A stretch of DNA of 64,000 nt from contig JAOAPI010000046.1 in assembly GCA_025462865.1 (NCBI GenBank), positions 1 through 64,000 of the forward strand, given 5' to 3'. Positions 10,304 to 28,907 of the stretch are shown in pieces (positions within the stretch are counted from its first letter, which is position 1; each line of letters opens with the position of its first letter). The notes beneath the pieces were generated by a model, which worked only from the letters and a program-made list of their open reading frames with translations, had not been told where the DNA came from and ran no database searches. The stretch is from Candidatus Sulfotelmatobacter sp. GTDB taxonomy: Bacteria; Acidobacteriota; Terriglobia; Terriglobales; Acidobacteriaceae. Position numbers and translations under genes: made by a program.

Positions 10304-10618
10304 ATGTCGGATCGAGATGGCAACGGTTTTGTGTGGTTTTTGGCGGGACTGGGCGTGGGCGCGGCTGTCGGAATCTTATATGCTCCGCAGCCTGGCACCG
10401 AGACCCGGGAAGCACTTCGCGCCCGAGCCGAAGAGGGCCGCGATTACATGAAGACGCGAGCTCGCGATGCCCGCAATCAGGCTTCCGAGTGGGTAGATCG
10501 CGGTCGCGACGTCGTGAATCAGCAGAAGGATCAGTTCAAAGCCGCATACGAGGCCGGACGGCAGGCCTATCAGGAAGCCACGACTGAGACCACTGCCGGA
10601 GCCCCTAAGAACCTGTAA
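10304..10618 (+). CDS. YtxH-domain protein
   Basis: This 104-residue protein has one N-terminal membrane helix (FVWFLAGLGVGAAVGILYAP) followed by a long charged amphipathic helix (EALRARAEEGRDYMKTRARD), the layout of the YtxH/DUF883-like family. The motif GILYAPQPGTETRE is typical. ATG 10304 is chosen because GCGGAGG lies just upstream. A DUF948-like gene follows, a pairing often seen in Gram-positive bacteria and Acidobacteria. A membrane-anchored stress role is suggested for the family, but the molecular function is unknown. Confidence 0.87.
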   Translation: MSDRDGNGFVWFLAGLGVGAAVGILYAPQPGTETREALRARAEEGRDYMKTRARDARNQASEWVDRGRDVVNQQKDQFKAAYEAGRQAYQEATTETTAGAPKNL

Positions 10619-10675
10619 ATTTGGGTCTGCGGCGCCGGCAAAAATACCAGCTGACGCCGCAGGAAAGCTTTTTTT

Positions 10676-11197: not shown

Positions 11198-11259
11198 ATC
11201 GGTTGCGACTCCTTTCAGTCGCGGCTGAAAGACATTCCGAACCTTCCTGATTTTTGCTC

Positions 11260-11643
11260 ATGCGTTATTTGGTCCGAGCTCGTCTTAAATCCGGCTGTGA
11301 GCTTAGTCTGCTCGATTCCATTCATAATGAGACACTCGGCGAAGGCTCCGTCGCCGAGGGCGAATATCTGCGCAATATGAATGCGGCGAGACGCTCCGCA
11401 GATAATACTGTCCGCTGGGTCGAGATCTGCTACTGCCCCACTCCGCTACAGGAAGAACGTCCCTACTGGGAAGAATATTTCGATCTCATAAAAGTGCAGG
11501 ACGCCCACGACCGCCGCAAGTGCCGTGACCAGAACGGAACTGAACCTTGGGCTTGTGGAAACTGTGACTGCACTGCGCGCCTGGAAAGCAAGCTGAAAGG
11601 ATCCGGCACGGGTTTCCTCGATTCGCTTTCCACCAAGAAGTAG
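11260..11643 (+). CDS. Conserved hypothetical protein with C-terminal Cys cluster
   Basis: This 127-residue protein begins RYLVRARLKSGCELSLLDSI, is probably a small alpha/beta fold, and carries a Cys-rich segment near the C-terminus (KCRDQNG...WACGNCDCTA) that could bind a metal. I chose ATG 11260; a TTG two codons earlier is possible. Ribosome site weak. I do not recognise a named family. It stands alone between the DUF948-like gene and a small helical protein. Confidence 0.65.
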   Translation: MRYLVRARLKSGCELSLLDSIHNETLGEGSVAEGEYLRNMNAARRSADNTVRWVEICYCPTPLQEERPYWEEYFDLIKVQDAHDRRKCRDQNGTEPWACGNCDCTARLESKLKGSGTGFLDSLSTKK

Positions 11644-11830
11644 CCAGCCATCCAGTAGGTCTAGGCATCAAACAAATGGGGGAATATACCTCTTTACCTG
11701 ATATTTTTTACGTTCGTCTGCCCAGGGCGCGGCTGGGCGCTTGGCTCCTACAAGTTTGGCAGTATTGTTTCAATTCCCTGGCCGCACTACAAGAACACCA
11801 CGCCCACTACGTTCCTCAAAATGGTGAATT

Positions 11831-12022
11831 ATGGATGGACCTAGCGTCGAGGAACTGCGGGACGAGCTGCAACGGCTGATGCAGGAGCAAATTGAGAGTT
11901 TAGCCAGACAAACATTCCTGGGCATTACCCCAGAAGATTTGCGCCAGGAAAAGGAGCGACTGCTGCGCATCCGCGAAGTGTCTGCTGATTTTTTGGAGGC
12001 CTTAAAGAGGATGGCGCCGTAG
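11831..12022 (+). CDS. Small helical protein of unknown function
   Basis: This 63-residue, highly charged, helix-only frame (VEELRDELQRLMQEQIESL, then EDLRQEKERLLRIREVSA) has heptad-like spacing and protein-like composition, which suggests a real small gene. Ribosome site weak. It lies 57 bases before the orphan at 12079 on the same strand. No function can be assigned. Confidence 0.55.
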   Translation: MDGPSVEELRDELQRLMQEQIESLARQTFLGITPEDLRQEKERLLRIREVSADFLEALKRMAP

Positions 12023-12078
12023 ACTCGAATCAGGTTTACGAAAGTAGCGTAGAGACGTTACTGTCGAAAGGAAAATCT

Positions 12079-12330
12079 ATGACGGACAAGCCAAGTGTAA
12101 CCCTACCCGGAACGGTTGAAAAAATCATAAAACCCTCACACCCGAATCAATCCGAGAAGGCTCAGATTGCTGTTGAAGGGGGTGACGACATGTACCGCGA
12201 AATCAGGATTAAGAATTCGCTTGGCAACAACAACGGCGGTGATGTGCGCCTTAAGGAGGGCGCAGAAGTTGAAGTCACTGTTGAAGCCGATCCACAGGCA
12301 ACAACGCCCAAGGGCAAAGAAAAACATTAA
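12079..12330 (+). CDS. Small conserved orphan protein, paralogue of the 4919 gene
   Basis: This 83-residue protein has a strong ribosome site (AAAGGAAAA before ATG). The pattern is G-T-V-x-x-I near the start, then AQIAVEGGDDMYREIRIKN, VRLKEGAEVEVTVE and a Lys-rich tail. Spacing and residues match the product of 4919-5161, so the two are members of one small family, probably beta-stranded. Cytosolic; function unknown. Confidence 0.65.
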   Translation: MTDKPSVTLPGTVEKIIKPSHPNQSEKAQIAVEGGDDMYREIRIKNSLGNNNGGDVRLKEGAEVEVTVEADPQATTPKGKEKH

Positions 12331-12441
12331 CGCTATTTTACGTTGATGTGACTCGGGAGCTGTCCTTCCGCTACTAGGAGCACATCAGCGACCTCGCTCT
12401 TTCTCGCGCATCAACATCGAGCAAGACTACGCGCGCAGATT

Positions 12442-13554
12442 CTAGGAAATCCACCCGCCGCCGAAGACAACGTCATCGTCGTAAAACACAGCAGCCTGGC
12501 CCGGAGTAATGGCGCGCTGCGGCTCATCAAAGGTGACCAGAACCTCATCTGCACCAACTTTTTCCAGCACGGCGGCAGCGGGTTCGTGACGGTGACGAAT
12601 TTTCACAGTGACTCGCATGGGCTCGCGCAGTTCGGCAGTCGCGATCAGATTCACGCGGCGCGCGCGCAGCGTCCGCGAGTAAAGATGCTCATCCGCGCCG
12701 ACGATCACTTGCTTGTCAGCTCCGTTGATCTGGATCACATAAAGGGGCGACCCCGTTGCCACGCCCAGGCCTTTGCGCTGACCGACCGTGAAGTTGTGAA
12801 CGCCGCCATGTTCGCCAATCACTTCCCCGTCCGTGGTCACCAGTTCGCCCGCTGTATCAGGTAAGGCGTCACCCCGTTCCGCCAAATAGGCATCGATGAA
12901 ACGCTTGTAATCACCACCGGGGACGAAGCATATCTCCTGCGAATCCGGCTTCTCCGCAAGAGCCAAGCCCTGCTTGCGGGCCAGCTCTCGAACCTCCGGT
13001 TTCGTCATTCTGCCAAGAGGAAAGAGGGTGCGACTGAGTTGCTGTTGAGTCAGACCGAACAGGAAATAAGTCTGGTCCTTGCTGCGATCGGCCGGGCGCT
13101 TCAGCAGCCAGCGCTCACGTGCGTCATCAAACTCGACTCGAGCGTAGTGGCCCGTGGCTACGCTATCAGCGCCGATCTGTTGCGCGACCGCGAGCAGTTG
13201 ATCAAATTTCAAATGATTGTTGCACAGGCTGCAGGGGATCGGTGTGCGTCCGGAAAGATATTCCGCAACGAACGGACGCACTACGTCGCGCTCGAATCGC
13301 TCTTCATGATTGACAACGTAATACGGAATGCCGATGTGCTCCGCCACGCGCCGCGCATCATAGACATCGTCGAGCGAGCAGCAGCGGCCCGTTACCGTCT
13401 CGGGCATGCCTTCGTGGCCAGCAAGCCGCCTCTGGTTCCACAGCTGCATAGTCAGGCCAATAATGTTGTGCCCGTCTGCGCGCAGCATCGCCGCGACGGT
13501 GGAAGAATCAACTCCACCCGACATGGCGACGGCGATGGTTTGAGTCATTGTCAT
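12442..13554 (-). CDS. mnmA: tRNA-specific 2-thiouridylase MnmA
   Basis: MnmA adenylates and thiolates U34 of Lys, Glu and Gln tRNAs. The protein shows the PP-loop AMSGGVDSS, the first catalytic Cys motif (PCSLCNNHLKF), the second (SQEICFVPGGDYKRF), and a C-terminal beta-barrel (VGQRKGLGVATG). Length (370 residues from ATG 13554) is normal. The ATG at 13548 (MTQTIAV) is also possible; the frame extends to 13572. The cysteine desulfurase gene ends about 20 bases upstream on the same strand, so the sulfur donor and the thiolase are co-transcribed. Confidence 0.95.
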   Translation of the reverse strand: MTMTQTIAVAMSGGVDSSTVAAMLRADGHNIIGLTMQLWNQRRLAGHEGMPETVTGRCCSLDDVYDARRVAEHIGIPYYVVNHEERFERDVVRPFVAEYLSGRTPIPCSLCNNHLKFDQLLAVAQQIGADSVATGHYARVEFDDARERWLLKRPADRSKDQTYFLFGLTQQQLSRTLFPLGRMTKPEVRELARKQGLALAEKPDSQEICFVPGGDYKRFIDAYLAERGDALPDTAGELVTTDGEVIGEHGGVHNFTVGQRKGLGVATGSPLYVIQINGADKQVIVGADEHLYSRTLRARRVNLIATAELREPMRVTVKIRHRHEPAAAVLEKVGADEVLVTFDEPQRAITPGQAAVFYDDDVVFGGGWIS

Positions 13555-13575
13555 AGGATGGCTAAATGCCAACGG

Positions 13576-14745
13576 CTAACTGCTAATTACGGCTTTCCTG
13601 AACGTCGGCGACAACTCTCTCAGCCGCGTCACGGTCTCGAGCACCAACCCAACCGCCAGATCGATGTCTTCCGCAGTGTTCTGCTTCCCCAGGCTAAACC
13701 GAATACTGGCGCGAGCACGGTCATTGCTCAGACCCATTGCCATAAGCACATGAGACGGCTCAATCGCGCCCGACGAACAGGCGGCGCCCGTCGAGACGGC
13801 CAATCCCTTGAGATCGAGTGCGATCACCATCGACTCGCCGTCGACATGATCAAAGTAAATGTTGGACGTATTCGGCACGCGCGTCGCGCCTCCGCCATTC
13901 ACGGCAGCTTCTTCGACGTGAGAGAGAATTCCCTGCTGCAGGCGGTCGCGCATTGCTGAAATTTTTTCGTTATCGCCACGCTCGAACCCTTCCATCGCCA
14001 ATTTCGCGGCCTTACCCAGAGCGACGATTCCCGGAACATTTTCCGTGCCTGCCCGGCGCGAACGTTCATGCCGTCCACCATAAAACAACGGCTGGATACG
14101 CGTTCCCTTGCGGACGTAAAGCGCTCCAACGCCCTGCGGTGCATGCATTTTGTGGCCGGAAATCGAAAGCGTGTGGCAACCGATCCGCCTCACATCGATT
14201 GGGACCTTGCCCACGGCTTGAACTGCGTCCGTATGAAAGGAGACTCCAGCCTCAACGGCGATCTTTCCAACTTCCTCGACCGGTTGCAGCACTCCGGTTT
14301 CATTATTTGCCATCATGATCGAAATCAGCCTCGTCGTGGGACGCAATGCCCGCCGCACATCATCGGGATCAACCATGCCCCGGCCGTCCACCGGAACATA
14401 CGTGACGTCGCAGCCTGTTTCCTGCATGTGTTTGCAGGCATGCAGCACGGCATGGTGCTCGATGCTGGAAGTAATCAGGTGATCGCCCGCACTGGCCAGT
14501 CCCGCAATTGCCAGGTTGTCGCTCTCGGTTCCGCCGCTGGTGAACACGAGCTCAGCGGCTCGGCAGTTTAATAACGAAGCCACGGAATCTCGCGCCTGCT
14601 CGACTGCGGCACGCGTCTCCTGCCCATGATGGTGGATCGATGAGGCATTGCCAAAGTGCTCGCCGAAGTATGGACGCATGGCGTCAAACACCTCCAGGAG
14701 CACCGGCGTAGTGGCATTATTGTCGAGGTAAATGCGCCGCATCAT
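13576..14745 (-). CDS. Cysteine desulfurase (NifS/IscS family)
   Basis: This PLP enzyme takes sulfur from cysteine as a persulfide. It shows the start RRIYLDNNATTPV, the cofactor Lys in SISGHKMHAPQG, the catalytic Cys in STGAACSSGAIEPSHVL, and RAGTENVPGIV. From ATG 14745 (or the adjacent 14742) it is about 390 residues, normal for the family; the longer frame to 14832 adds unrelated residues. Located directly before mnmA, it most likely feeds tRNA 2-thiolation and possibly Fe-S assembly. No iscU or iscA is adjacent. Confidence 0.94.
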   Translation of the reverse strand: MMRRIYLDNNATTPVLLEVFDAMRPYFGEHFGNASSIHHHGQETRAAVEQARDSVASLLNCRAAELVFTSGGTESDNLAIAGLASAGDHLITSSIEHHAVLHACKHMQETGCDVTYVPVDGRGMVDPDDVRRALRPTTRLISIMMANNETGVLQPVEEVGKIAVEAGVSFHTDAVQAVGKVPIDVRRIGCHTLSISGHKMHAPQGVGALYVRKGTRIQPLFYGGRHERSRRAGTENVPGIVALGKAAKLAMEGFERGDNEKISAMRDRLQQGILSHVEEAAVNGGGATRVPNTSNIYFDHVDGESMVIALDLKGLAVSTGAACSSGAIEPSHVLMAMGLSNDRARASIRFSLGKQNTAEDIDLAVGLVLETVTRLRELSPTFRKAVISS

Positions 14746-18346: not shown

Positions 18347-19189
18347 TTACGTGGGCCAAATGCGCAGTGCCGTTTTGCTCAGAATCTGCTGCTGCATTTC
18401 TGCGCTCAGAGGCAGGGCGCGGAACTCTTCCAGATTTTTCTTGATATCGGGCACGCCTGGGCCCGGCCAATCTGTGCCGAACAGAGTCTTGTCGGCAATT
18501 TCGTCGAGGCGTGGAAAATAATTGAGCAACGTCTTGGGAGGAATTCCGCTGATGTCAAGATACACATTGGGATGACGGCGGATAAGAAAAAATGCCGTCT
18601 GCATCCACAGCGGACGGCCCCCATGGGCAAGCAGGATCTTGAGCTTGGGAAAATCGACCGCTACATCATCGACGTACATTGGATCGCCATATTTATTTCG
18701 CGCGCCGGGAAAGATCGAGGTCCCCGTGTGAAACATTACCGGCACACCATTCGCCTCGGCAGCGCGGTAAATGATTTCCAGCTCCTTAACTCCATTCAGA
18801 TAATCGTTCGGAAATAAAAGCTGATGCGGGGGATGAATCTTGATCATTCGAATCCCCAACCGTAGAATCTGCTCCATATCCGCAAGAACGTTCGTAGTGT
18901 GCCGTGGATGCAGGCTGCCGCATGAAAGTAATCGTTTCGGATCTTCCTTAACGTAATCCGCAATAAATTGATTTACGCCGTTGGTAAAGCCGATCACTTC
19001 AGGAGCGACGTAGTTGATAAGCACGGCGCGATCAATGCCACAAGCGTCAAGGTGCTTAAGGAACGATTTAGGCGAACGGCAATATTCGCTGATCTCTTCG
19101 AAGTTCGCGCGCTTCTTTTTCATGAGATCCAGCGCGTGGGGCTTGAACATCTCCATGGGCTGGATATGAATGTGGCAATCGGTGATCAT
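18347..19189 (-). CDS. Amidohydrolase_2 family metal-dependent hydrolase or decarboxylase
   Basis: This 280-residue TIM-barrel protein has the N-terminal metal motif DCHIHIQP, a middle IKIHPPH, FHTGTS, LAHGG, and the C-terminal metal Asp in FGTDWPGPG. This pattern is shared by ACMSD-like decarboxylases and related hydrolases acting on aromatic or ring-cleavage products. ATG 19189 is ten bases downstream of the Hcr FAD-subunit stop, so it is the last gene of the aromatic cluster. Substrate unknown; a role on a ring-derived acid is inferred from position. Confidence 0.85.
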   Translation of the reverse strand: MITDCHIHIQPMEMFKPHALDLMKKKRANFEEISEYCRSPKSFLKHLDACGIDRAVLINYVAPEVIGFTNGVNQFIADYVKEDPKRLLSCGSLHPRHTTNVLADMEQILRLGIRMIKIHPPHQLLFPNDYLNGVKELEIIYRAAEANGVPVMFHTGTSIFPGARNKYGDPMYVDDVAVDFPKLKILLAHGGRPLWMQTAFFLIRRHPNVYLDISGIPPKTLLNYFPRLDEIADKTLFGTDWPGPGVPDIKKNLEEFRALPLSAEMQQQILSKTALRIWPT

Positions 19190-19199
19190 TCGAAGTGGC

Positions 19200-20183
19200 T
19201 CAACTACTCGCCGCCGCAAGCACAGCCCGCTTGGTGAAGACTCGAATCATTTCCCGCCGATACTCAGGGGTCAGCGCCGAAGTTGTCAATGGCTTGGCGG
19301 CACGCGCCGCGAGGTCGCCGACGGCATCGGCTAGCGCTTCGTCGACTGCCTGTCCGATCAGCATCTCGCCGGCTCGCTGCACCAGAAGCGGCGCTGGATT
19401 CACAGCGGTCATCGCGATTCGTGCGTCCGCTACATGACCGTTCGATCGCTTCATTACCACCGCAACCCCCGCCAGTGGATAGTCAATGGACCCGCGAACT
19501 CGCAGCTTACGGTAAACCCCGCGATAGTCGGCCGATTCCGCAGGCAGAAACACTCGCGTGACCAGTTCGTTTGGTTGCAGCTTCCGGTAATCCATTCCGT
19601 CGCCGGTGTAGAACTGCTGCAAGGGAATTCTTCGTTTACCATTCGGGCCGGAGATTTCAATCTCGGTATTCAGACAAAGCAATGCTGGGGGCGTGTCTCC
19701 CGAAAACGCAGCCCAGCACTTGGCTCCGCCTGGAGCGACATGGCAAAGATTGCCGTCCTTCTTAATGCAAAATCCGCAACCCTTGCGCCAGGTTAACGAC
19801 TGGTTGTACCAAAGGCAGCGAGTATCAAGACAGATGTTGCCGCCGATCGTTCCCATGTTGCGCAGCACCGGAGAAGCAACGGTCGCCGCCGCTTCGGTGA
19901 GCACCGGAAAATGTTGGCGCAAGTGTGGCGACTTTTCAATGCCGCTAAGGGTCGTAAGAGCGCCAATCTCCACTGCGCCCCCGGATTGCGGCCGTATTCC
20001 GCGCATCTCGGCGACGCAATGCAAGTCCAACACATACTCCGGCTCAAAAAGCTTTTGCCGCATCGACGGAATCAGGTCCGTGCCTCCCGCCAGCACACGA
20101 ATATTTCCCGCGCGCTCCGCAAGAAACGCTATGGCTTCGTCGATGGTGCGGGGGCGAAGCAGTCTGAATTGCGGAAGGCTCAA
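19200..20183 (-). CDS. hcrB: FAD subunit of a 4-hydroxybenzoyl-CoA reductase-like molybdenum hydroxylase
   Basis: This 327-residue xanthine-dehydrogenase-family FAD subunit has FAD motifs VLAGGTDLIPSM and NMGTIGGNICLDTRC. After the second motif comes an insertion with four Cys at 123, 139, 147 and 156 (CGFCIKKDGNLCHVAPGG...KC). From memory, spacing 16-8-9 equals that of the extra [4Fe-4S] ligands of Thauera HcrB (122, 138, 146, 155); ordinary CO or xanthine dehydrogenases lack this loop. It starts with TTG overlapping the upstream stop (TTGA), with GGGAGG just before. In HCR this cluster carries electrons from ferredoxin to FAD. Confidence 0.85.
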   Translation of the reverse strand: MSLPQFRLLRPRTIDEAIAFLAERAGNIRVLAGGTDLIPSMRQKLFEPEYVLDLHCVAEMRGIRPQSGGAVEIGALTTLSGIEKSPHLRQHFPVLTEAAATVASPVLRNMGTIGGNICLDTRCLWYNQSLTWRKGCGFCIKKDGNLCHVAPGGAKCWAAFSGDTPPALLCLNTEIEISGPNGKRRIPLQQFYTGDGMDYRKLQPNELVTRVFLPAESADYRGVYRKLRVRGSIDYPLAGVAVVMKRSNGHVADARIAMTAVNPAPLLVQRAGEMLIGQAVDEALADAVGDLAARAAKPLTTSALTPEYRREMIRVFTKRAVLAAASS

Positions 20184-22762
20184 TCCGCGCCTCCCACCAC
20201 CGGTGATTCTCTTCGGCTCGGATCCAGCCTATGGCGTTCGGGGCCTTTGCCCTTAAAGCACAACGATCCTCCGTGCTCGCGAAAACGTGGCGGCGAGGTC
20301 GGGTCAATGCCTTCGGTCATGTTCAAGGTCTTAGCATTCTTCTTCGCGCGCAATGCTGCCAATACTCGCTCCGGAGTGAACGGCGATTCATGCAACCGCA
20401 CTCCTACCGCATCGTAAATCGCATTCGAAATCGCCGGGATGGTTGCGGCCAGCGAACCTTCGCTGCATTCCTTGGCACCGAACGGACCTTCGGGATCGAT
20501 GCTCTCGACAATGATAGCTTCAACTTCGGGCGACTCCACTGACGACGGACTGCGATATTCCAGCATTCCCGCATTCATCAGCATGCCGTCTTTCCAGACC
20601 ATTTCTTCCGTCAGCGCCTGTCCCATTCCCATCCAGACCGATCCGATGATCTGGCCTTGGACCGAGACCGGATTCAGAGCGCGCCCGCAATCGTGCGCGG
20701 CCCACACTTTATGAACCGTGACTTCACCGGTATCTTCGTCCACACTGACTTCGGCTACCTGTGCGGAATATGAATACGCAGGCGACGGCCCCACGCCTCC
20801 ACCTTTATGTTTCCCGCCTCGTGCTTCCGGCGGTGGCGCGTAGGAACCCGTGCCGGTGAGCGCGCCGTGAAAATCAATCGCTGCGACTACGGCCTCTTCG
20901 AACGTCATCCATTCCTTGGGACCTTCTTCTTTCCGCTTCTGCTGCAATGAGCCGCGCAGGATTTGCCCTTCCACGCGCCCGCTGACAGAAGCTCCCGCCT
21001 GCGTCACTTCCGCTTCTTCCTTTTGATCCTTATTCGCCGCCGACGCCACACTTCCCTTTTTGAGAACAAGATCATCCCGAAACACGATATTGTCGGCGGC
21101 GCAGTTCATCTTCTTCGCCGCGGCTGCTGCGATTCTCTTCTTTACCTCTTCGGCCGCGCGCAACGTCGCGTTCCCTGCCATGAACGTAACCCGGCTGGAA
21201 TACGATCCAATATCGATTGGAGTCAGATCGGTATCGGCGGCGATTATTCTCACGCGACCGAGCGAGCATCCCAGCACTTCGGCGGCAATTTGTGCCGTCA
21301 TTGTGTCCGATCCCTGACCAATTTCAGATGCGCCCGTGTATACGACCACGCCACCGTCGCGGTCGATCTTGATATTCACCGTCGAGTGCGGCATGTCAGA
21401 GCGGATAATCGAATTTGCCGCCCCGCTTACATAATGGCTGCATGCGATCCCGAGACCGCGCCCCCTCGGCAGCTTGCCCTTCCGCTGGTTCCACCCCGAG
21501 CGGTCAACCGTCTTCTCAATGCACTCCGGCAAGCCGTAGCTCTGCACTCGCAAGCCGTTGACGGTAATGCATGGCGGCTTGAGCAGATTTCGCTTCCGAA
21601 TTTCCGCCGGATCCATTCCGATTTTCACGGCAAGTTCGTCCAGTTGCGATTCGAAAGCGAAGCGTACGTTGACGGTCCCATGGCCGCGCATTGCCCCACA
21701 CGCCGGTTTGTTGGTGAGCACGCGATAGCCGTCGTACTGAATGTGCGGAATATCGTAAAGCGCGCCGAGCAACGCTCCAGAGTAAAGAATCGTGACCACG
21801 CCGTACGAACAGTACGCTCCGCCATCTTGTACCACGCGGGCCTTCACGGCGGTAATACGGCCGTCGTTCGTCACTCCAGTTTTCAGATCGATGATGGTGC
21901 GCGGACGTCCGCGATGCGCCCAGAAAACTTCTTCCCGCGTATAAGTGATCTTCACCGGCGCTTGCGCCTTGCGCGCTGCCACCGCCGCAATGATCTCCAG
22001 CGGAATCACTTCACTCTTTCCTCCGAATCCGCCACCCACCAGCGGCTTGATCACTCGGATTTGTGCCATCGGCATTTCCAGCACCAGCGACAACTTGTGC
22101 TGGAGGTAGTACGGCACCTGCGTGGAGGACCAGACCGTCAGGCGTCCCATCTTTCCCGTGTGTGGATCGAGTTCGAACGAGGCCAGCGTGGAGTGTGGTT
22201 CCATAGCGGCGTGCGTCACTTCATTGGCGATGAAGCGCGCTTCGGCGATGTGATCGGCTTCGGCAAAGCCTTGGTCTGGATCGCCGAACACGTGGTGATA
22301 ATCTTTTTCCAGATTGCCGGGCTTGTTGTCGTGGATCAGATCGGTCTTTGCCTTCATCGACTCTTCAGGATCGAAGTACGCCGGCAGAACCTCGTACTCC
22401 ACATCGATGAGCTCCAAAGCTTTCTCGGCGACCGATTCGGAAACTGCGACCACGCATGCAACGTTATCTCCCACGTACCGCACCTTATCGAGCGCGAGTG
22501 CGTGCTCGTCGTGGCCGACGGGGAGAATTCCGTAAGGATTAGGCGCGTCTTTGCCGATAACGACAGCTACGACGCCGCCAAGCGCCTCCGCGCGGCTGGC
22601 ATCGATCGACTTGATCCGCGCATGAGGATACGGCGAATGCAGAATCTTTCCAACCAGCATCCCTGGTACGCGGAGGTCGTCCGTGTACTTGCCGCTGCCG
22701 GTGGTCTTCTCGGCGGCGTCGACCATCGCGGTAGGTTTGCCGATGATGGAAAATGTATTCAT
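20180..22762 (-). CDS. hcrA: Molybdopterin subunit of a 4-hydroxybenzoyl-CoA reductase-like enzyme
   Basis: This large catalytic subunit (860 residues from ATG 22762) shows the XDH-family order: AxH domain (GKYTDDLRVPGMLVGKIL), then cofactor motifs VGGGFGGKSEVIPLE, CGAMRGHGTVNVRFA, ASEIGQGSDTM, and the catalytic Glu in GAKECSEGSLAA. HCR HcrA is about 770 residues; the excess is a charged insert near residues 580-630 (NKDQKEEAEVTQAG, QQKRKEEGPKEW) and a tail of about 30 residues. The gene overlaps hcrB by four bases. With the 2Fe-2S and FAD subunits it forms a heterotrimer that probably acts on an aromatic CoA thioester. Confidence 0.85.
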   Translation of the reverse strand: MNTFSIIGKPTAMVDAAEKTTGSGKYTDDLRVPGMLVGKILHSPYPHARIKSIDASRAEALGGVVAVVIGKDAPNPYGILPVGHDEHALALDKVRYVGDNVACVVAVSESVAEKALELIDVEYEVLPAYFDPEESMKAKTDLIHDNKPGNLEKDYHHVFGDPDQGFAEADHIAEARFIANEVTHAAMEPHSTLASFELDPHTGKMGRLTVWSSTQVPYYLQHKLSLVLEMPMAQIRVIKPLVGGGFGGKSEVIPLEIIAAVAARKAQAPVKITYTREEVFWAHRGRPRTIIDLKTGVTNDGRITAVKARVVQDGGAYCSYGVVTILYSGALLGALYDIPHIQYDGYRVLTNKPACGAMRGHGTVNVRFAFESQLDELAVKIGMDPAEIRKRNLLKPPCITVNGLRVQSYGLPECIEKTVDRSGWNQRKGKLPRGRGLGIACSHYVSGAANSIIRSDMPHSTVNIKIDRDGGVVVYTGASEIGQGSDTMTAQIAAEVLGCSLGRVRIIAADTDLTPIDIGSYSSRVTFMAGNATLRAAEEVKKRIAAAAAKKMNCAADNIVFRDDLVLKKGSVASAANKDQKEEAEVTQAGASVSGRVEGQILRGSLQQKRKEEGPKEWMTFEEAVVAAIDFHGALTGTGSYAPPPEARGGKHKGGGVGPSPAYSYSAQVAEVSVDEDTGEVTVHKVWAAHDCGRALNPVSVQGQIIGSVWMGMGQALTEEMVWKDGMLMNAGMLEYRSPSSVESPEVEAIIVESIDPEGPFGAKECSEGSLAATIPAISNAIYDAVGVRLHESPFTPERVLAALRAKKNAKTLNMTEGIDPTSPPRFREHGGSLCFKGKGPERHRLDPSRRESPVVGGAD

Positions 22763-22773
22763 TGTTTCGTTTA

Positions 22774-22798
22774 TCATTCCGGGCGGAGCGGGGAATCC
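22774..22798. repeat. Copy 1 of a TCATTCCG...GCGGGGAATC intergenic repeat
   Basis: A 25-base sequence (begins TCATTCCGGGCGG, ends GGGGAATCC) related to copies at 28187-28210 and 57014-57038. It lies just upstream of the molybdopterin-subunit start and supplies the ATG of the longer reading frame at 22777, a reason to prefer ATG 22762. Confidence 0.55.
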
Positions 22799-22819
22799 AT
22801 TTTCTGCTTGCAGCTACTC

Positions 22820-23308
22820 CTACCTGGTCGTCATCCCGCGCTGCTCCGCCGCAATCGCCGACCGAATCGCTTCATACATCTGGCTATACCCAGTACAGCG
22901 GCACAAATTGCTACTCAGGGCCATGCGAACGTCCGCTTCCGAGGCATTTGGATTCTCCGCCAATAATGATTTCACCGTCATGATGAATCCCGGAGTGCAA
23001 AATCCACACTGTGCGCCCCCCCAGTCGCCATAGGCCTTTTGTATCGCGGCTAGGCTGCCGTGTTCGCTCACGCCTTCGACAGTGGTGATCTCGTGCTCCT
23101 GACAACTCGCCGCCAGGAGCGTGCATGACATCATGGCAACACCATCGACCAGCACAGTGCACGCACCGCACGACGACTCATCGCAGCCGCGTTTCGAACC
23201 AGTAAGTTCCAAGTCTTGACGCAGCACATCCAGCAGCAGCGCACTGGGCTCGATCGCAAGCTCGTAACCGCGGCCGTTGACTCTCAGCTCGATGAGTTCT
23301 TTTTTCAT
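22820..23308 (-). CDS. hcrC: 2Fe-2S subunit of the 4-hydroxybenzoyl-CoA reductase-like enzyme
   Basis: This 162-residue electron-transfer subunit has a plant-type [2Fe-2S] site (GCDESSCGACTVLVDG then SCTLLA) and a second [2Fe-2S] site in the C-terminal helical domain (CGFCTPGF and CRCTGY). The pattern is diagnostic for xanthine-oxidase-family small subunits including HcrC. It precedes the molybdopterin and FAD subunits, giving order C-A-B. A 57-base gap with one diverged repeat separates it from the molybdopterin subunit. Confidence 0.92.
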   Translation of the reverse strand: MKKELIELRVNGRGYELAIEPSALLLDVLRQDLELTGSKRGCDESSCGACTVLVDGVAMMSCTLLAASCQEHEITTVEGVSEHGSLAAIQKAYGDWGGAQCGFCTPGFIMTVKSLLAENPNASEADVRMALSSNLCRCTGYSQMYEAIRSAIAAEQRGMTTR

Positions 23309-23396
23309 GAAGAAACAACTTCTGGCTGCTAGCTACCGGCTTCTAGCGAACCATACTGCTTGTACCTGCGAGAAGCCAGCAACCGGTCGCTCGAAG

Positions 23397-23720
23397 CTAG
23401 TACAGCGGCACACTCCCATCCACTTGGCGCGACCAGGCATCGATGCCCCCGCGCATGGACTGAGCCTTTTCGAACCCCTGCTGCCGCAACCATACGGTCA
23501 CGTTCATCGATCGCACGCCATGATGGCAAATCACTACGATGTGATTCTCCGGATCCAATTCCTGATGTGCCCTCGACGGCACATCTCCCATGGGAATCAA
23601 CTTCGCTCCTGCCATGCTGGCCGTTTCAAACTCCCACGGCTCGCGGACATCGAGCAGAGTGAACTCTTCTTTCTCGTCGAGCTTCGTCTTCACTTCTTCG
23701 GGCGTGATCTCGTAATCCAT
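23397..23720 (-). CDS. Rhodanese-like protein
   Basis: This 107-residue single-domain rhodanese has active-site Cys in ICHHGVRS and signature strands LLDVREPWEFE and MRGGIDAW. Such proteins carry sulfane sulfur or act as sulfurtransferases. AGGGAAG lies before the ATG, and the upstream crotonase stop is four bases away, so it is translated within the catabolic operon. Sulfur supply to the molybdenum cofactor or Fe-S clusters of the neighbouring Hcr-like enzyme is an inference from position. Confidence 0.9.
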   Translation of the reverse strand: MDYEITPEEVKTKLDEKEEFTLLDVREPWEFETASMAGAKLIPMGDVPSRAHQELDPENHIVVICHHGVRSMNVTVWLRQQGFEKAQSMRGGIDAWSRQVDGSVPLY

Positions 23721-23723
23721 GTG

Positions 23724-24512
23724 CTACTTCCCTGCCCATTTCGGTTTGCGCTTCTCGAGGAATGCCAACGTTCCCTCGCGCACGTCCGACGTCTTCATTA
23801 ACTCTTCAAGATAGATCTTTTCAGCCCGCGCCAGGCCCTTATCGAAGTGCATCGCGTCCCAGGCATAGATTGCCTTTTTCGTGACAGCAAGCGCTGCGGG
23901 ACTTGAGGCGAGTAGCGCCTCCACAGTGGAGTCGACAACGCGCGTGAGTTCTTCATCAGCCACAGAACGATTGGCCAGACCTATCTCCGCGGCTTCAGCG
24001 CCAGTAATTGTGCGGCCGGTTAAGATCAATTCTGAAGCCCGCTTCTGCCCCACCAGAGCCGCCAGCGCTGTGCACGCCACAGGCGGATAACATGCCAGCT
24101 TGATTTCGGGAAATCCCCATTGCGCCGACGCGGCGGTGTACACGAGGTCGCAGATCATGCTTAGTTCCGCGCCACCCCCAAGGCAATGCCCGTGCACGGC
24201 AGCAACGGTGACCTTCTTACTGGAAACCAAAAGGCGGACGACTCCGTGGAACTTGGTCAACATCTCCTCGATCTTGTCAGGAGTGTGCGCCGCGACATCA
24301 ACGCCAGCTGAAAAGCCCTTGCCATCGCCGCTGAGCACGACAACGGCAATATCCGAGCGGGCTTCTACTTCCGCCAATGCCTGCGCCAACTCCTCCATCA
24401 TCGGAATATCGATGACGTTCAAGGGGGAATTGCGCAAGCGAATGTTTGCCACAAAAGGGCGGATGTCCACCGCCAAGCGCGCCAGACTAGATTCCACGAA
24501 ACCGCTCGTCAT
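23724..24512 (-). CDS. Enoyl-CoA hydratase family protein (dienoyl-CoA hydratase-like)
   Basis: This 262-residue crotonase has oxyanion-hole segments GKGFSAGVDVAAH and GHCLGGGAELSMICD and substrate loop WGFPEIKLACYPPVAC. The PPVAC loop recalls cyclohexa-1,5-diene-1-carbonyl-CoA hydratases of benzoyl-CoA catabolism (from memory). The usual first catalytic Glu position reads Ala-Glu-Leu (GGGAELS), and the second Glu region is FPEIKL. It lies between the BoxB-like gene and the rhodanese on the same strand. It may hydrate or open a ring-modified aromatic CoA ester. Exact reaction unknown. Confidence 0.85.
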   Translation of the reverse strand: MTSGFVESSLARLAVDIRPFVANIRLRNSPLNVIDIPMMEELAQALAEVEARSDIAVVVLSGDGKGFSAGVDVAAHTPDKIEEMLTKFHGVVRLLVSSKKVTVAAVHGHCLGGGAELSMICDLVYTAASAQWGFPEIKLACYPPVACTALAALVGQKRASELILTGRTITGAEAAEIGLANRSVADEELTRVVDSTVEALLASSPAALAVTKKAIYAWDAMHFDKGLARAEKIYLEELMKTSDVREGTLAFLEKRKPKWAGK

Positions 24513-24546
24513 GTTTTTCTCTGCGTCTCTGTGCCTCTGTGGTGAG
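24513..24546. repeat. CTCTGTG-type interspersed repeat, copy 1
   Basis: A low-complexity word series (CTCTGCGTCTCTGTGCCTCTGTGGTGAG) occupies the gap between the BoxB-like stop (24552) and the crotonase start (24512). It therefore forms the leader and ribosome-site region of the crotonase (GCAGAGAAAAAC before ATG). A related sequence on the other strand is at 63638-63668 in the lysS end. Confidence 0.6.
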
Positions 24547-24551
24547 AACCG

Positions 24552-25727
24552 CTACAAATTGATCGCAGACTTCCGTACTTCGCCAATGCTCGCCAGCGGA
24601 TCACGGGCTCCCGTTTTCTCAGCGATCCATTTTTTCTCGGTATCAATAATGTCGAGCAGCAACTTTTTGTCTGCCGGGCCTGGCATGTACTCAGTCAGGT
24701 GCTCTTCGTAGGCACGATCGTCGAGCGTTTCACCCGTCTGCGCGTGAAACTTCTGTCCCGCCCAGCGGCCGATCTCGCGATTGAACTTGATGTTTGGCGC
24801 ATACAACTTCGGTTGCCCAGGCTTCAATGCGCTGTTGAAACGCTCAATCAATCCCGAGACTTCGTCACGATAAAGGTTGCGGTTGTAGTCGTTCAAATCA
24901 TCAAGATCTGGAGCGCGCTCGTTCTTGGGCTCGTCGTATCTTCCCTTTACACCCCACACATAAGCCCAGTGCGCGGACGAAGAATGATCGGTACCGAACA
25001 AGTCGTAGGAACTTGAAATCCACTTGTTGAGATATTTCTGAATCAGCCAGCCTGGGATTACACCCGCCTCCACAATGCGACGAAGGCCGTCGTTGCCGGT
25101 GCCCATGTGAAACGCCTCTTCTCGAAGCATGTACGACATGGAGCGTCCCAGCGGCGCGAACGCGGAATATTTCAGCATCTGCAACTGGAATTTTCCGTCC
25201 CGATCGACGAAGTCGGTGTAGGTAAAGAAATCCATCCAGTTGTCAACATTCACGTTAAAAGCACCGAGCAGTCGCTTGTTGTCAAACGCGCGCCGCTCGA
25301 GCATCTTCTGCGCTTCAACTTTGCCTGAATAGCCGAAGTGATCCACCAGCAACGCGCACATCTGCCAGCCATGGCGCATCTCTTCGATCATGACGCGCGT
25401 AATAGCGCGTCGGTCCCAGTCCGTAGGCGCGTTTTCCAAAAGATTGCGCTGCTGCTCGACGCTGGCAAACTCGGTATCGCCCTGATAAACGATCATATTC
25501 ATCAAGGCGTCGCGCATCTGCTGCGTGGGAATCTGACGGAGATTCTCCCACTTGCGGCGGCCCTTGTACGATCCAAACTCAATCTCTTCAGTATCAATCG
25601 CACCATAGAGCGTGTCGAAGTGGAAAGCCTCGATGTCTTTCGTGTTGACGCCAATATCTTTACGCCAGTCGTTGAACATGCCTTCCCAGTCACTGAAGGT
25701 CCCGATTTTCGCTACTTTGCCCGGCAT
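24552..25727 (-). CDS. boxB: BoxB-like benzoyl-CoA 2,3-epoxidase (di-iron) subunit
   Basis: This 391-residue ferritin-like di-iron protein matches BoxB, the oxygenase component that epoxidises benzoyl-CoA. Matching landmarks recalled from Azoarcus BoxB are QGDTEFASVEQQR, the iron-ligand helix EEMRHGWQM, HFGYSGKVEAQKMLERR, DRDGKFQLQML, the second ligand helix REEAFHMGTG and QKYLNKWISSSYDLFG. BoxB is about 470 residues, so this form is shorter, lacking part of the C-terminal half. PaaA of phenylacetate degradation is a distant relative and fits less well. GGAG precedes ATG. No boxA reductase gene is in the window. Confidence 0.85.
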   Translation of the reverse strand: MPGKVAKIGTFSDWEGMFNDWRKDIGVNTKDIEAFHFDTLYGAIDTEEIEFGSYKGRRKWENLRQIPTQQMRDALMNMIVYQGDTEFASVEQQRNLLENAPTDWDRRAITRVMIEEMRHGWQMCALLVDHFGYSGKVEAQKMLERRAFDNKRLLGAFNVNVDNWMDFFTYTDFVDRDGKFQLQMLKYSAFAPLGRSMSYMLREEAFHMGTGNDGLRRIVEAGVIPGWLIQKYLNKWISSSYDLFGTDHSSSAHWAYVWGVKGRYDEPKNERAPDLDDLNDYNRNLYRDEVSGLIERFNSALKPGQPKLYAPNIKFNREIGRWAGQKFHAQTGETLDDRAYEEHLTEYMPGPADKKLLLDIIDTEKKWIAEKTGARDPLASIGEVRKSAINL

Positions 25728-25740
25728 AATAACTCCGCTC

Positions 25741-27204
25741 CTACGCTATATTCAGCCAAACTGTTTTCAACTCCGTGTAATGCTCAATCGCGTGCGCTCC
25801 CAACTCGCGGCCGAAGCCGGAGCTCTTGTAACCGCCAAAGGGCAGCGAAGCGTCCATCAGTCCGTAAGTGTTAATCCAAACTGTCCCGGCTTTCAGGCGA
25901 CGCGAGACTATGTGCGCCCGTTTCACGTCGCGCGTCCAGACGGCCGCCGCCAAGCCATAGGGATTATTGTTGGCCTGCTCGATGACTTCGTCGACATCGT
26001 CGAATGTCAACACGGAAAGCACTGGACCGAATATCTCTTCCCGCGCGATTGTCATGTCGTTCTTCACATCCCCAAAAATCGTCGGCTCGATGAAGAACCC
26101 CTTGCCGCCATCCACATTGACCCGGTTGCCGCCAGCGACCAGCTTGGCCCCGTCTTTCTTCCCGGCCTCAATGTATCCAAGCACCGTCTTCATCTGCTCC
26201 GCGCTAACAATCGCTCCCAGCCGTGTCTGAGGATCGAGCGGGTCCGCCGGACGCATCTTGGCGGCGCGCGCCGCGAGCTTTTCAGTAAACTCGTCCTTCA
26301 CTTTGCTTTCGAGAAAGAGCCGCGAACCCGCATTGCAGACTTCGCCTTTGCCGTAGAAAATTCCAGTGATCGCGCCCTTCACGGCGCTGTCGATATCGGA
26401 ATCGGCAAAAACAATATTCGGTGATTTCCCGCCGAGTTCGAGCGTGATGCGCTTCACCGTATCGGCCGCGCTCCGCATAATTTCCTGGCCGACGGCGGTC
26501 GAACCGGTAAACGCAATTTTGTCGATCCCGGGATGTTGGACCATCGCCCTGCCCACAGCACCCGGGCCGGTAATGATATTGATCACGCCCACGGGCACGC
26601 CCGCTTCGATCGCCAACTTCCCAAAGCGCAATGTGCTTAGCGAAGTCTGGCTGGCCGGCTTCAACACGATGGTGTTGCCGCAAGCCAGCGCCGGGCCGAG
26701 CTTCCACGAAGCAAGCAATAAAGGAAAATTCCAGGGAACGATTAGGCCGACTACGCCGACAGGTTCGCGAAGTGTGTAAGTAAATGCGGTTTCGAGAGTG
26801 TTGACGGTCTCGCCGTGGATCTTCGTCGCGAGGCCTGCGTAATAGCGCAGAACATCGACAACCATCGGGATGTCGACATAGCGGGATTCAAAAATCGGCT
26901 TGCCGTTGTCAAGCGTCTCCAGTTCGGCAAACTCGTCGATATTTTTTTCCAGCAGATCGGCGAGCTTCCAGATCAGTCGCCCGCGCTCGCTGGCAGACAT
27001 CTTTCGCCACGGACCGTTCCGATCTTCGAGAGCGCGGCGAGCTGCCTCGACCGCACGGTCTACATCTGTACTCGAACCTTCCGCGATCTGCGTCAACACT
27101 TCGCCAGTGGCCGGATTGATGGTGTCGAACTTCTTCGCACCATCTACCCACTGCCCATCGATCAGCAGACGCCCGGGTTCAACCTTTACTTTAGCCGCAA
27201 GCAT
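25741..27204 (-). CDS. NAD(P)-dependent aldehyde dehydrogenase
   Basis: This 487-residue ALDH-superfamily enzyme has VPWNFPLLLASWK, cofactor-binding FTGSTAVGQ, catalytic Glu in LELGGKSPNIV, catalytic Cys in GEVCNAGSR, and EEIFGPVLSV. It is of the ALDH1/betaine-aldehyde type rather than the BoxD type, judging by the ending (PFGGYKSSGFGRELG). It lies 13 bases before the BoxB-like gene, so it may oxidise the aldehyde released on ring cleavage (in the box pathway, 3,4-dehydroadipyl-CoA semialdehyde). That substrate is an inference. Confidence 0.93.
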   Translation of the reverse strand: MLAAKVKVEPGRLLIDGQWVDGAKKFDTINPATGEVLTQIAEGSSTDVDRAVEAARRALEDRNGPWRKMSASERGRLIWKLADLLEKNIDEFAELETLDNGKPIFESRYVDIPMVVDVLRYYAGLATKIHGETVNTLETAFTYTLREPVGVVGLIVPWNFPLLLASWKLGPALACGNTIVLKPASQTSLSTLRFGKLAIEAGVPVGVINIITGPGAVGRAMVQHPGIDKIAFTGSTAVGQEIMRSAADTVKRITLELGGKSPNIVFADSDIDSAVKGAITGIFYGKGEVCNAGSRLFLESKVKDEFTEKLAARAAKMRPADPLDPQTRLGAIVSAEQMKTVLGYIEAGKKDGAKLVAGGNRVNVDGGKGFFIEPTIFGDVKNDMTIAREEIFGPVLSVLTFDDVDEVIEQANNNPYGLAAAVWTRDVKRAHIVSRRLKAGTVWINTYGLMDASLPFGGYKSSGFGRELGAHAIEHYTELKTVWLNIA

Positions 27205-27320
27205 CGATTCTCTTCTTTCCTCGTAACTCTTTCCTCATAACGCCGTTCACAGTAACGCCGGCGTCCCATCGGCTGTCGGGCGGGAATCTCGCCGTCCTGC
27301 ACGGTACTAGCTACTAGGTA

Positions 27321-28142
27321 TCACTTCGCCTTAAATGCCGCCGGCCGTTTCTCCACATATGCAGCCAGTCCTTCCTTCGCATCCTCGCTCTGGAAAAGGA
27401 TCTGCTGGTTCTCGCGCTCAACCGCCAGCGCCGACTCCATGGGAATCTCCCAGCCGGTCTGCACCGCGCGCTTGATCCGCCCGACCGCCTTCGCTGCTTT
27501 GTTCGGCGGACAGAACTGCTTCGCGTACTCCATCATGTTTTCCATGAAGCCGTCGCGTTCGTAAATGTCGTTGATAATTCCAAGCTCCTGTGCTTCTTCA
27601 AATGAAAAGGTGTTGCCCGTGACCATCAACTCGATGGCCTTGCTCTTTCCCACCAGCCGCGAGAGCCGCTGCGTGCCGCCAGTCCCGGGAAGCACTCCGA
27701 GGTTCACTTCTGGCAGCCCGATTTTTCCCGCATCCTTGCGCGCAATGCGGATATCGGCAGCCATCGCGATCTCCAGCCCGCCGCCGACGCAATGGCCGTT
27801 AATCGCGGCAATCACCAACTTTGGCGTATGCTCCAGCCTCAGCAGCATTTCGTTGGCGTGCAGGCAGAAGTAATACTTGAACGTCGGATCGACGCTGGAA
27901 AGCATCTTGATATTGGCTCCGGCGGAAAAGAACTTGTCGCCAGCGCCCGTCAACAGGATGACGTAGACATCATTCTCCATGCGCGCGCGTAGGATTGCCT
28001 CATCGAGCTGCCGGTTCATTTCATAGGTGTAAGTATTGGCTGGCGGGTCGCACATCTCGATAACGGCTACGCCGCTGTCCGTGCGGTAGTTGACAAGCTG
28101 TTTAGTGGTTTCGCCGGTCGCCGGCTGCGTTATGGTCGCCAT
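27321..28142 (-). CDS. Enoyl-CoA hydratase/isomerase family protein
   Basis: This 273-residue crotonase has oxyanion-hole motifs DKFFSAGANIKML and GHCVGGGLEIAMAAD and the segment LPEVNLGVLPGTGGTQRL with the catalytic Glu, so all residues for hydratase activity are present. AAGGAG before the ATG is the strongest ribosome site of the cluster, and this is the first structural gene after the TetR regulator. It may act in beta-oxidation of the ring-opened acyl-CoA, or together with the second crotonase take the place of the missing two-domain BoxC. Confidence 0.92.
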   Translation of the reverse strand: MATITQPATGETTKQLVNYRTDSGVAVIEMCDPPANTYTYEMNRQLDEAILRARMENDVYVILLTGAGDKFFSAGANIKMLSSVDPTFKYYFCLHANEMLLRLEHTPKLVIAAINGHCVGGGLEIAMAADIRIARKDAGKIGLPEVNLGVLPGTGGTQRLSRLVGKSKAIELMVTGNTFSFEEAQELGIINDIYERDGFMENMMEYAKQFCPPNKAAKAVGRIKRAVQTGWEIPMESALAVERENQQILFQSEDAKEGLAAYVEKRPAAFKAK

Positions 28143-28186
28143 ATTTGTAGCTCCTTATATCGTCGTGAAGATCAATATCTCAACTG

Positions 28187-28210
28187 TCATTCCGCGCGAA
28201 GCGAGGAACC
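28187..28210. repeat. Copy 2 of the TCATTCCG...GAGGAACC intergenic repeat
   Basis: A 24-base sequence (begins TCATTCCGCGCGAAG, ends GAGGAACC) in the 102-base gap between the TetR gene and the first structural gene. It matches copies at 22774 and 57014. It could be a transcript-end or processing site; no T-run follows. Confidence 0.6.
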
Positions 28211-28244
28211 TTAGGCTTCGCCGGAAGTAAAACTAGGTCCGTCG

Positions 28245-28907
28245 TCAGCGCACATCCCTGCGCGTACGAGTTCCGTTCATCACGCCACGCAGAAACACAT
28301 CGCCCATCTCGCGCGCGATCTGCTCCGCATCGGCGTCGACTTTGGGATTGTGCCAGGTGTAAATCCAATTCATCATGCCGAAAAGGCTCAGCACCGCAAT
28401 GCGCGTGGAAAACTGCAAACCTCGGTCTCGTTTTAGGTCATCCAGCAACCCCACGCAGATGCGGTAATATTCGCGCTTGATTGCTGCAACTTCGGAAGCG
28501 AAGCCATTCTTGAGCGCCTCAGCCTCGTGCGACAGCACCTTCATGCCTGCTTGATTGGCAAGGAAATATTCCAGGTGATTGAGAATGAAAATGCGAATGC
28601 GCTGTTCTGGGTCGCTTATCCCCTGCAACCGTGATTTCAGGCGCTGCACAATGGTTGTGAACGTATGCTTCTGAATCAGGAACAGCAGCCGCTCCTTAGA
28701 TTCGAAGTAGTAGTAAAGACCTGCCAGCGACATGCCGCTCGCGCGTGAAAGATCGCGCATCGATGCGCCTTCGTATCCTTTTTTGCAGAAGACATCGGTA
28801 GCGTGGGTGAGGATCTCTGACAGCCGCTTGTCGAAGCGGGTTGCGGGCGGGGATGCGGCCCGATAACGGCGTGCAGAAACCCGAGCTGCGGTGGAGGGAC
28901 TCGCCAT
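28245..28907 (-). CDS. TetR-family transcriptional regulator
   Basis: This 220-residue regulator has a 25-residue basic N-terminal tail, a TetR helix-turn-helix (ILTHATDVFCKKGYEGASMR, then GMSLAGLYYYFESKERLL) and an all-helical ligand domain as in regulators of acyl-CoA pathways. It is the first gene of the minus-strand aromatic cluster. A perfect inverted repeat (28930-28947) lies 23 bases before its start, suggesting autorepression relieved by a pathway CoA thioester; this is inference. Start by first in-frame ATG; ribosome site weak. Confidence 0.93.
   Translation of the reverse strand: MASPSTAARVSARRYRAASPPATRFDKRLSEILTHATDVFCKKGYEGASMRDLSRASGMSLAGLYYYFESKERLLFLIQKHTFTTIVQRLKSRLQGISDPEQRIRIFILNHLEYFLANQAGMKVLSHEAEALKNGFASEVAAIKREYYRICVGLLDDLKRDRGLQFSTRIAVLSLFGMMNWIYTWHNPKVDADAEQIAREMGDVFLRGVMNGTRTRRDVR

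Follow-up and report, generated by a model that had tools for sequence, protein, structure and literature searches.

Can an acidobacterium remove the phenolic hydroxyl group of 4-hydroxybenzoyl-coenzyme A (CoA) by reduction and then use oxygen to attack the ring of the benzoyl-CoA that is left? The question is raised by ten genes at positions 18347–28907 of a 64,000-nucleotide stretch of Candidatus Sulfotelmatobacter sp. DNA (the window, on contig C141 of a 6.08-Mb genome). All lie on the minus strand and encode, in order, a TetR-type regulator, a crotonase (ECH1), an aldehyde dehydrogenase (ALDH), a BoxB-like diiron protein (BoxBl), a second crotonase (ECH2), a rhodanese-domain protein, the HcrC, HcrA and HcrB subunits of a predicted 4-hydroxybenzoyl-CoA reductase (Hcr), and an amidohydrolase. 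An earlier, sequence-only reading of the window had given the same ten genes in this order on one strand, and all of them are present. It had also put the gaps at several junctions at about 4–15 bases, which holds at some only; other gaps reach 116, 102 and 88 bases. From TetR to the amidohydrolase the junctions measure 102, 116, 13, 39, 3, 88, 42, −4 and −20 bases, the last becoming +10 if the amidohydrolase starts at a conserved ATG at 19189.

We think it rather probable that 4-hydroxybenzoate is handled by a hybrid route encoded in this acidobacterial cluster, with reductive dehydroxylation followed by oxygen-dependent epoxidation. Hcr would take the para-hydroxyl off 4-hydroxybenzoyl-CoA to give benzoyl-CoA, and BoxBl, as an oxygen-dependent diiron enzyme, would epoxidise the benzoyl-CoA ring. 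ECH1, possibly with ECH2, would then open the epoxide or oxepin instead of BoxC, and ALDH would oxidise the semialdehyde instead of BoxD, leading into beta-oxidation. What we observed is the gene order, the family signs of Hcr, the conserved active site of BoxBl, the tendency of Hcr to occur together with either BoxBl or BoxB and, where a genome has canonical BoxB, Hcr clusters devoid of BoxBl and ALDH; the substrates, oxygen use, ring opening and electron donors we infer.

The reductase and the BoxB-like protein

By sequence, the Hcr subunits make a convincing case for a genuine 4-hydroxybenzoyl-CoA reductase. HcrA scores 1034.6 bits on the TIGR03194 equivalog model, above its cut-off of 994.55, and among PDB entries Thauera HcrA is by far its closest match, at 820.8 bits, the next enzyme reaching 288.6. 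Its Y332 and E773 align with Y326 and E726, key residues of the Thauera protein. Likewise, HcrB C123, C139, C147 and C156 align with Thauera HcrB C122, C138, C146 and C155, the four insert cysteines that bind the [4Fe–4S] cluster. A pattern test found this insert in 13/13 Hcr-group relatives and in none of four more distant sets, including those of loci L179 and L180. The window enzyme thus resembles Thauera aromatica HcrCAB (PDB 1rm6/1sb3) in being a three-subunit member of the xanthine-oxidase family with the four-cysteine insert and the key HcrA residues, but differs in a longer linker between the two Mo domains of HcrA, in a C-terminal extension of that subunit, and in being clustered with an oxygenase-like gene. 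It probably carries out the step from 4-hydroxybenzoyl-CoA to benzoyl-CoA.

BoxBl appears to form a separate BoxB-like group, which lies outside the BoxB family by the curated criterion: it scores 224.4 bits on the TIGR03225 equivalog model, below the cut-off of 499.1, where an annotated Mycetohabitans BoxB reaches 893.5. Aligned with 14 members of the canonical BoxB group, it shows 34–41% identity. In the tree it stands apart from canonical BoxB, among other short proteins, and a third clade is also separate; this tree, in which canonical rows have shortened starts, settles neither the order of the BoxBl, canonical and third clades nor whether the two BoxBl clades form one group.

The active site is largely kept. 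Six iron ligands are given for BoxB (E120, E150, H153, D211, E240 and H243; PMC5489048), and all six have equivalents in BoxBl (E86, E116, H119, D175, E204 and H207), which are invariant in 15/15 clade-1 and 13/13 clade-2 BoxBl sequences. The same source lists second-shell residues contacting the benzoyl group (Q116, T119, S123, F193, F203/F206 and T210; PMC5489048). Across the 28 BoxBl sequences the equivalents of Q116, T119, S123 and F193 never vary, and that of F203 is found in 27. An AlphaFold model of BoxBl (mean predicted local distance difference test score, pLDDT, 75.3) has BoxB as its best match (Foldseek E 6e-16; VIA Z 29–30, 3.2 Å, over 354–356 residues). BoxBl is predicted from sequence and model to work like BoxB, and benzoyl-CoA is its likely substrate.

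Compared with the aerobic box pathway of Azoarcus evansii and relatives, the window protein thus shares the diiron epoxidase fold, the iron ligands and most benzoyl-contacting residues, whereas it is shorter (391 versus 475 amino acids in annotated BoxB) and belongs to a separate group. The phenylacetyl-CoA epoxidase PaaABCE has a related diiron fold (VIA Z ~15), but BoxBl is only 20–22% identical to one PaaA, and no PaaBCDE is found among the ten genes. The third BoxB-related clade consists of eight sequences (L047–L054) that are 24–32% identical to clade-1 BoxBl; they have all diiron ligands, and N in place of F203.

Conservation, co-occurrence and exchange

The arrangement of the genes goes beyond chance: it is found again, with ALDH, Hcr and CoA-transferase genes gained or lost, in dozens of Terriglobales genomes. 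We compared 80 named BoxBl loci, the best 80 of at least 510 and hence close relatives only, all with acidobacterial titles, plus six more relatives; counts take only loci with enough sequence (68 upstream, 49 downstream). Upstream of BoxBl, ECH1 is present in 68/68 loci, TetR in 63/68 and ALDH in 39/68. On the downstream side are ECH2 (44/49), the amidohydrolase (39/49), the rhodanese (36/49) and HcrA (31/49), the last being missing from the remaining 18/49. In 15 loci the rhodanese and amidohydrolase genes are ~8–339 bases apart with no Hcr between them, and Hcr is therefore an optional module of the BoxBl cluster.

Hcr and a BoxB-type protein also go together at the level of genomes. In a first sample of 297 genomes of the phylum, the seven family genomes with BoxBl were the same seven with HcrA at 78% or more. 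We then considered 300 family genomes, accepting matches to the BoxB model at E <= 1e-20 and to HcrA at E <= 1e-150, and found a BoxB-family match in 118 (18 over the canonical cut-off) and HcrA in 95. Both occurred in 90 genomes, BoxB or BoxBl only in 28, Hcr only in five and neither in 177 (Fisher p 1.5e-44), so that 90/95 Hcr genomes have BoxBl or BoxB, versus 28/205 of those without Hcr. Counted by genus, the figures are 37, 5, 1 and 36 (p 8e-16); these p-values ignore relatedness, serve as a guide only and overstate the case. In all five Hcr-only genomes (G372, G373, G399, G424 and G429) a contig ends between Hcr and the expected position of BoxBl, so none is a clean counter-example.

Taking below-cut-off matches as BoxBl, and a C-terminal fragment in G497 as canonical, BoxBl occurs in 100 family genomes, 75 of them with Hcr, and canonical BoxB in 19 (including G497), of which 16 have Hcr and G400, G470 and G502 do not. 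The two types are almost mutually exclusive: G463 has both and G553 may have (a short second fragment), and both genomes are listed with 6% contamination.

This alternation makes it possible to ask what changes in an Hcr cluster when the genome carries canonical BoxB. Twelve loci were compared (L227, L229, L230, L232, L233, L235, L236, L237, L240, L241, L242 and L244; 11 from genomes over the cut-off, plus G497). Dropped from the count were G463, which has both types, L231, L239 and L243, where a contig ends within ~1.5 kb upstream of HcrC, and L234. In 12/12 loci ECH2, the rhodanese, HcrC and HcrA are kept, and BoxBl and ALDH are absent; the absence of BoxBl follows from the choice of genomes, whereas that of ALDH does not. 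ALDH thus occurs in 0/12 canonical-BoxB Hcr loci versus 39/68 BoxBl loci (Fisher p 2e-4), and ECH1 in 6/12 versus 68/68 (Fisher p 3e-6, a locus-level count), both tests again ignoring relatedness.

In these genomes canonical BoxB comes with genes of its own pathway. At L255 (G339), the one BoxB locus examined by profile, BoxB adjoins BoxC (886.7 bits, cut-off 712.3) and lies near BoxD (718.1 bits, cut-off 444), away from the Hcr locus, and a BoxC match stands beside BoxB in all 11 canonical-BoxB windows (L250–L256 and L258–L261). With Mycetohabitans BoxA as query, no tblastn match at E <= 1e-6 was found in 42 loci, 11 of them the canonical-BoxB windows; since BoxA was not found near canonical BoxB either, its absence near BoxBl is no distinguishing feature. 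The simplest reading of the exchange is that BoxBl and ALDH do the job of BoxB, BoxC and BoxD, namely consuming the benzoyl-CoA made by Hcr.

For ring opening, ECH1 is a tentative candidate in the absence of BoxC, because it always accompanies BoxBl, is missing from half of the canonical-BoxB Hcr loci, and matches the crotonase domain at the N terminus of BoxC (33.5% identity over 194 amino acids, both catalytic-type glutamates aligned). It is also the best BoxC-model match of the window genome, at 83 bits, far under the cut-off of 712. BoxC over the TIGR03222 cut-off was found in 2/60 family genomes. We considered ECH1 as a marker of BoxBl alone and rejected it: a relative at E <= 1e-70 occurs in 62/297 phylum genomes, and ECH1 relatives stand beside canonical-length BoxB genes in seven genomes. 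The best NCBIfam models for ALDH are BADH and StyD, both below cut-off, and NF008868, by which BoxD was named in L255, does not appear in the top 25 of its 44 model matches. As in the aerobic box pathway, the proposed epoxidase gene of the window has close by it an ALDH gene and one for a crotonase that can be aligned to the N-terminal part of BoxC, but there is no BoxC, BoxA or BoxD-type ALDH among the ten genes.

The same genes might instead belong to an upper pathway that shortens the side chain of hydroxycinnamates to yield 4-hydroxybenzoyl-CoA, with ALDH, the crotonases and a CoA-transferase found in some relatives having no part in ring opening. ECH2, the rhodanese and the amidohydrolase often stay when BoxBl or Hcr is missing, and a glutaconate-CoA-transferase-like enzyme could activate an acid. 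Yet ALDH is lost in every one of the 12 loci where canonical BoxB has replaced BoxBl, and both ECH1 and ECH2 stay below the cut-off of the model for p-hydroxycinnamoyl-CoA hydratase/lyase; we hold this explanation to be rather unlikely. A broader proposal, a second and BoxC-independent aerobic benzoyl-CoA catabolism in which BoxBl, ECH1 and an unrelated ALDH replace BoxB, BoxC and BoxD, often clustered with Hcr, so that the phenol is reduced away before oxygen is used on the ring, is in our estimate somewhat short of an even chance.

Points against the proposed hybrid route

Several findings weigh against the hybrid route. HcrB (332.6 bits, equivalog cut-off 404.55) and HcrC (173.9 bits on TIGR03193, cut-off 257.8) fall below their own cut-offs, so that the reductase assignment rests on HcrA and the HcrB insert, and TIGR03194 is of limited sharpness, with insert-less relatives in L180 and L179 scoring 961.5 and 865.4 bits, not far below the threshold that HcrA passes by a modest margin. 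Among the ten cluster genes we found no reductase for BoxBl and no ferredoxin source for Hcr, and nothing in the window genome (G000) is over the TIGR03222 cut-off for BoxC. The conserved order is weak evidence by itself, because flanking genes that are unrelated to the pathway, labelled from sequence as carB-, DapA-, peptidase-, citrate-synthase- and NifS-like, are kept in many of the same loci, and the cluster order is thus partly a mere conserved stretch of chromosome. One Hcr locus, L234 (G437), has no other cluster gene in the 4.1 kb upstream of HcrC.

The dependence of BoxBl on Hcr is also incomplete. Among 24 genomes with no HcrA seen in the BoxBl locus (some of these loci end at contig ends), HcrA is found elsewhere in seven, and none at E <= 1e-100 in 17. 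As Hcr is missing from these 17/24 and from 25 of the 100 BoxBl genomes of the larger search, BoxBl must serve something besides Hcr. Three of the 18 genomes with canonical BoxB over the cut-off are likewise without this Hcr (15 have it). Outside the family, HcrA at >60% identity occurs in just one (G131) of 11 genomes with clade-2 BoxBl, with 46–51% relatives in seven of the 11 and none at E <= 1e-100 in three.

BoxBl itself departs from BoxB in the second shell, where F206 is replaced by Y in 25/28 sequences and T210 by V or I in 28/28. These two changes, the separate grouping of BoxBl and its modest identity to BoxB, its persistence without Hcr, and the lack of BoxC over the cut-off in the window genome would all fit a protein that acts on some other aromatic CoA ester, with Hcr merely in the same regulon. 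We consider this unlikely, given that the same Hcr cluster is accompanied now by BoxBl, now by canonical BoxB, and that four of the benzoyl-contacting positions are invariant in all BoxBl sequences compared.

A different objection concerns oxygen. The route might serve anaerobic or microoxic metabolism, with Hcr feeding a benzoyl-CoA reductase (Bcr) and BoxBl acting only when oxygen appears. Locus L271 of G265 (7784–14723) encodes BcrC/B/A/D-like proteins, with genes for a BadH-like dehydrogenase and a Rieske-type oxygenase adjoining, and PF06050 pairs occur in 6/14 tested genomes, including two Hcr genomes in which neither BoxBl nor BoxB was detected. Relatives with such genes could use the Hcr product without oxygen, which is a further point against the hybrid route. 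On the other hand, the Bcr-like proteins of G265 are below the equivalog cut-offs, PF06050 has no match in the window's genome nor in seven of the other 13 tested, and the examined loci show Hcr grouped with BoxBl and not with Bcr-like genes; as an explanation of the window cluster we regard this route as quite improbable. Two Hcr-only genomes with Bcr-like genes (G399 and G424) had looked like cases of substitution by Bcr, an idea weakened by contigs that start inside HcrA.

The hybrid route of the sequence-only reading is supported in part. Its Hcr assignment is borne out by HcrA over the cut-off, the cysteine insert of HcrB and the equivalents of Y326 and E726; the co-localisation is conserved in relatives in the same order, with gains and losses; and the link between Hcr and a benzoyl-CoA epoxidase holds in 90/95 Hcr genomes. 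The epoxidase, however, is no BoxB by the curated criterion (224 bits against a cut-off of 499, and a separate group in the tree), and Hcr proved optional.

Cluster genes, relatives and wider meaning

Table 1. Genes of the aromatic-CoA cluster in the window, with assignments and the matches behind them
Gene product	Coordinates	Strand	Basis
TetR-type regulator	28245..28907	−	Pfam TetR_N + TetR_C_24
ECH1, single-domain crotonase; candidate epoxide/oxepin hydrolase or enoyl-CoA hydratase	27321..28142	−	Pfam ECH_1
Aldehyde dehydrogenase (ALDH), proposed stand-in for BoxD	25741..27204	−	Pfam Aldedh
BoxBl, BoxB-like diiron protein, proposed benzoyl-CoA epoxidase	24552..25727	−	TIGR03225 224 bits, iron ligands, AlphaFold model
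ECH2, crotonase	23724..24512	−	Pfam ECH_1
Rhodanese-domain protein	23397..23720	−	Pfam Rhodanese
HcrC, predicted [2Fe–2S] subunit	22820..23308	−	Pfam Fer2 + Fer2_2; TIGR03193 below cut-off
HcrA, predicted molybdenum subunit of 4-hydroxybenzoyl-CoA reductase	20180..22777	−	TIGR03194 over cut-off
HcrB, predicted flavin adenine dinucleotide (FAD) + [4Fe–4S] subunit	19200..20183	−	best PDB match Thauera HcrB
Amidohydrolase-2 family TIM-barrel protein	18347..19189 (open reading frame opens at 19219; conserved ATG 19189)	−	Pfam Amidohydro_2

A role for the rhodanese solely in sulfuration of the Mo cofactor was rejected, the gene being kept in loci without Hcr. The structure model of the amidohydrolase (pLDDT 75.8) is nearest to 3irs (function unknown), 5-carboxyvanillate decarboxylase and LigJ hydratase. 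A crude exact-match scan of 82 stretches upstream of ECH1 revealed no shared inverted repeat that could be a TetR operator, and small open reading frames between ECH2 and the rhodanese or CoA-transferase genes in L143, L145 and L060 belong to no Pfam family. A benzoate-CoA ligase over the cut-off is encoded elsewhere in the window genome, on contig C44.

The window locus has no CoA-transferase genes. In BoxBl loci with enough downstream sequence the beta subunit occurs in 15/49 and the alpha subunit in 13/49, one gene before and one after ECH2. In relatives and on contig C56, both subunits resemble glutaconate CoA-transferase (PDB 1poi; E 7e-42 and 6e-35), and the region around the beta-subunit glutamate, which we take to be catalytic, aligns with that structure. 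Contig C56 belongs to the same genome as the window and carries (L075, 1–4092) the end of a second BoxB-like gene (153 amino acids, 80% identical, at the contig end), followed by CoA-transferase beta, ECH2 and CoA-transferase alpha. In G257 the cluster is split: TetR, ECH1, ALDH, BoxBl, CoA-transferase beta and ECH2 lie together, and CoA-transferase alpha, Hcr and the amidohydrolase ~100 kb away. The presence of a CoA-transferase subunit in each half argues that both halves serve one pathway.

As to electron supply, clade-2 BoxBl adjoins a NuoE-like [2Fe–2S] protein in 4/13 loci, several of them short (L068, 11101–12791; L072, 6462–8355; L069; L071), and a NuoF-like protein is also present in L068, L069 and L072. 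The pair is a plausible reductase for clade-2 BoxBl that would draw on reduced nicotinamide adenine dinucleotide. Neither protein has a match in the examined loci of the window's family.

Enzymes related to Hcr occur in other settings as well. In L173 (G026:C355) an HcrCAB-like set adjoins genes for an MttB-type methyltransferase, a corrinoid protein, a RACo-type activator and a molybdopterin oxidoreductase, an arrangement in which O-demethylation is perhaps tied to dehydroxylation. A second xanthine-oxidase-family set, with an HcrA-like subunit at ~30% and without the HcrB cysteine insert, lies near a benzoate-CoA ligase gene in L225 (11339–15146; G121) and L226 (5213–9006; G073). A plasmid search with HcrA returned 17 records at 32–37% identity, with no sign of Hcr in any annotation.

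The metabolic idea has a precedent. Aromatoleum aromaticum is described as converting 3-(4-hydroxyphenyl)propanoate to benzoyl-CoA, with or without oxygen, via a presumptive reductive dehydroxylation, and then using the box pathway when oxygen is present (PMC9765128). The network of strain EbN1 thus resembles our proposal in passing from 4-hydroxybenzoyl-CoA to benzoyl-CoA by a presumptive dehydroxylation during oxic growth, but section 5 (part 1) of that paper presents it as a network and has no single cluster with a BoxB-like variant (PMC9765128). The remark in the sequence-only reading that this combination had not been described consequently needs narrowing: the metabolic idea is in print for A. 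aromaticum, and no description of an Hcr/BoxBl gene cluster or of the BoxB-like variant was found in the literature searched, which covered few subscription papers. In another study the benzoyl-CoA pathway is treated as a marker, mainly of Betaproteobacteria, and the main text, as available, contains no word beginning with "acidobacteri" (PMC10803450).

The closest named relatives are genomes derived from metagenomes, with Acidobacteria, Acidobacteriaceae or Candidatus Sulfotelmatobacter in their titles, and soil, bog or palsa appears in many locus titles. Terriglobales are often found in soil and peat, and lignin and plant phenolics commonly give rise to 4-hydroxybenzoate. If the proposed route is correct, a low-potential reductive dehydroxylation and an oxygen-dependent epoxidase would be wired together in one gene set, BoxBl would define a branch of BoxB-like enzymes that operates without BoxC, and the cluster would offer a way to recognise such metabolism in metagenomes. 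Because BoxBl and ALDH alternate with the canonical Box genes, the function can be tested directly. Together, these genes suggest that soil and peat Acidobacteria unite, within one route, chemistry that is normally anaerobic with chemistry that is normally aerobic.

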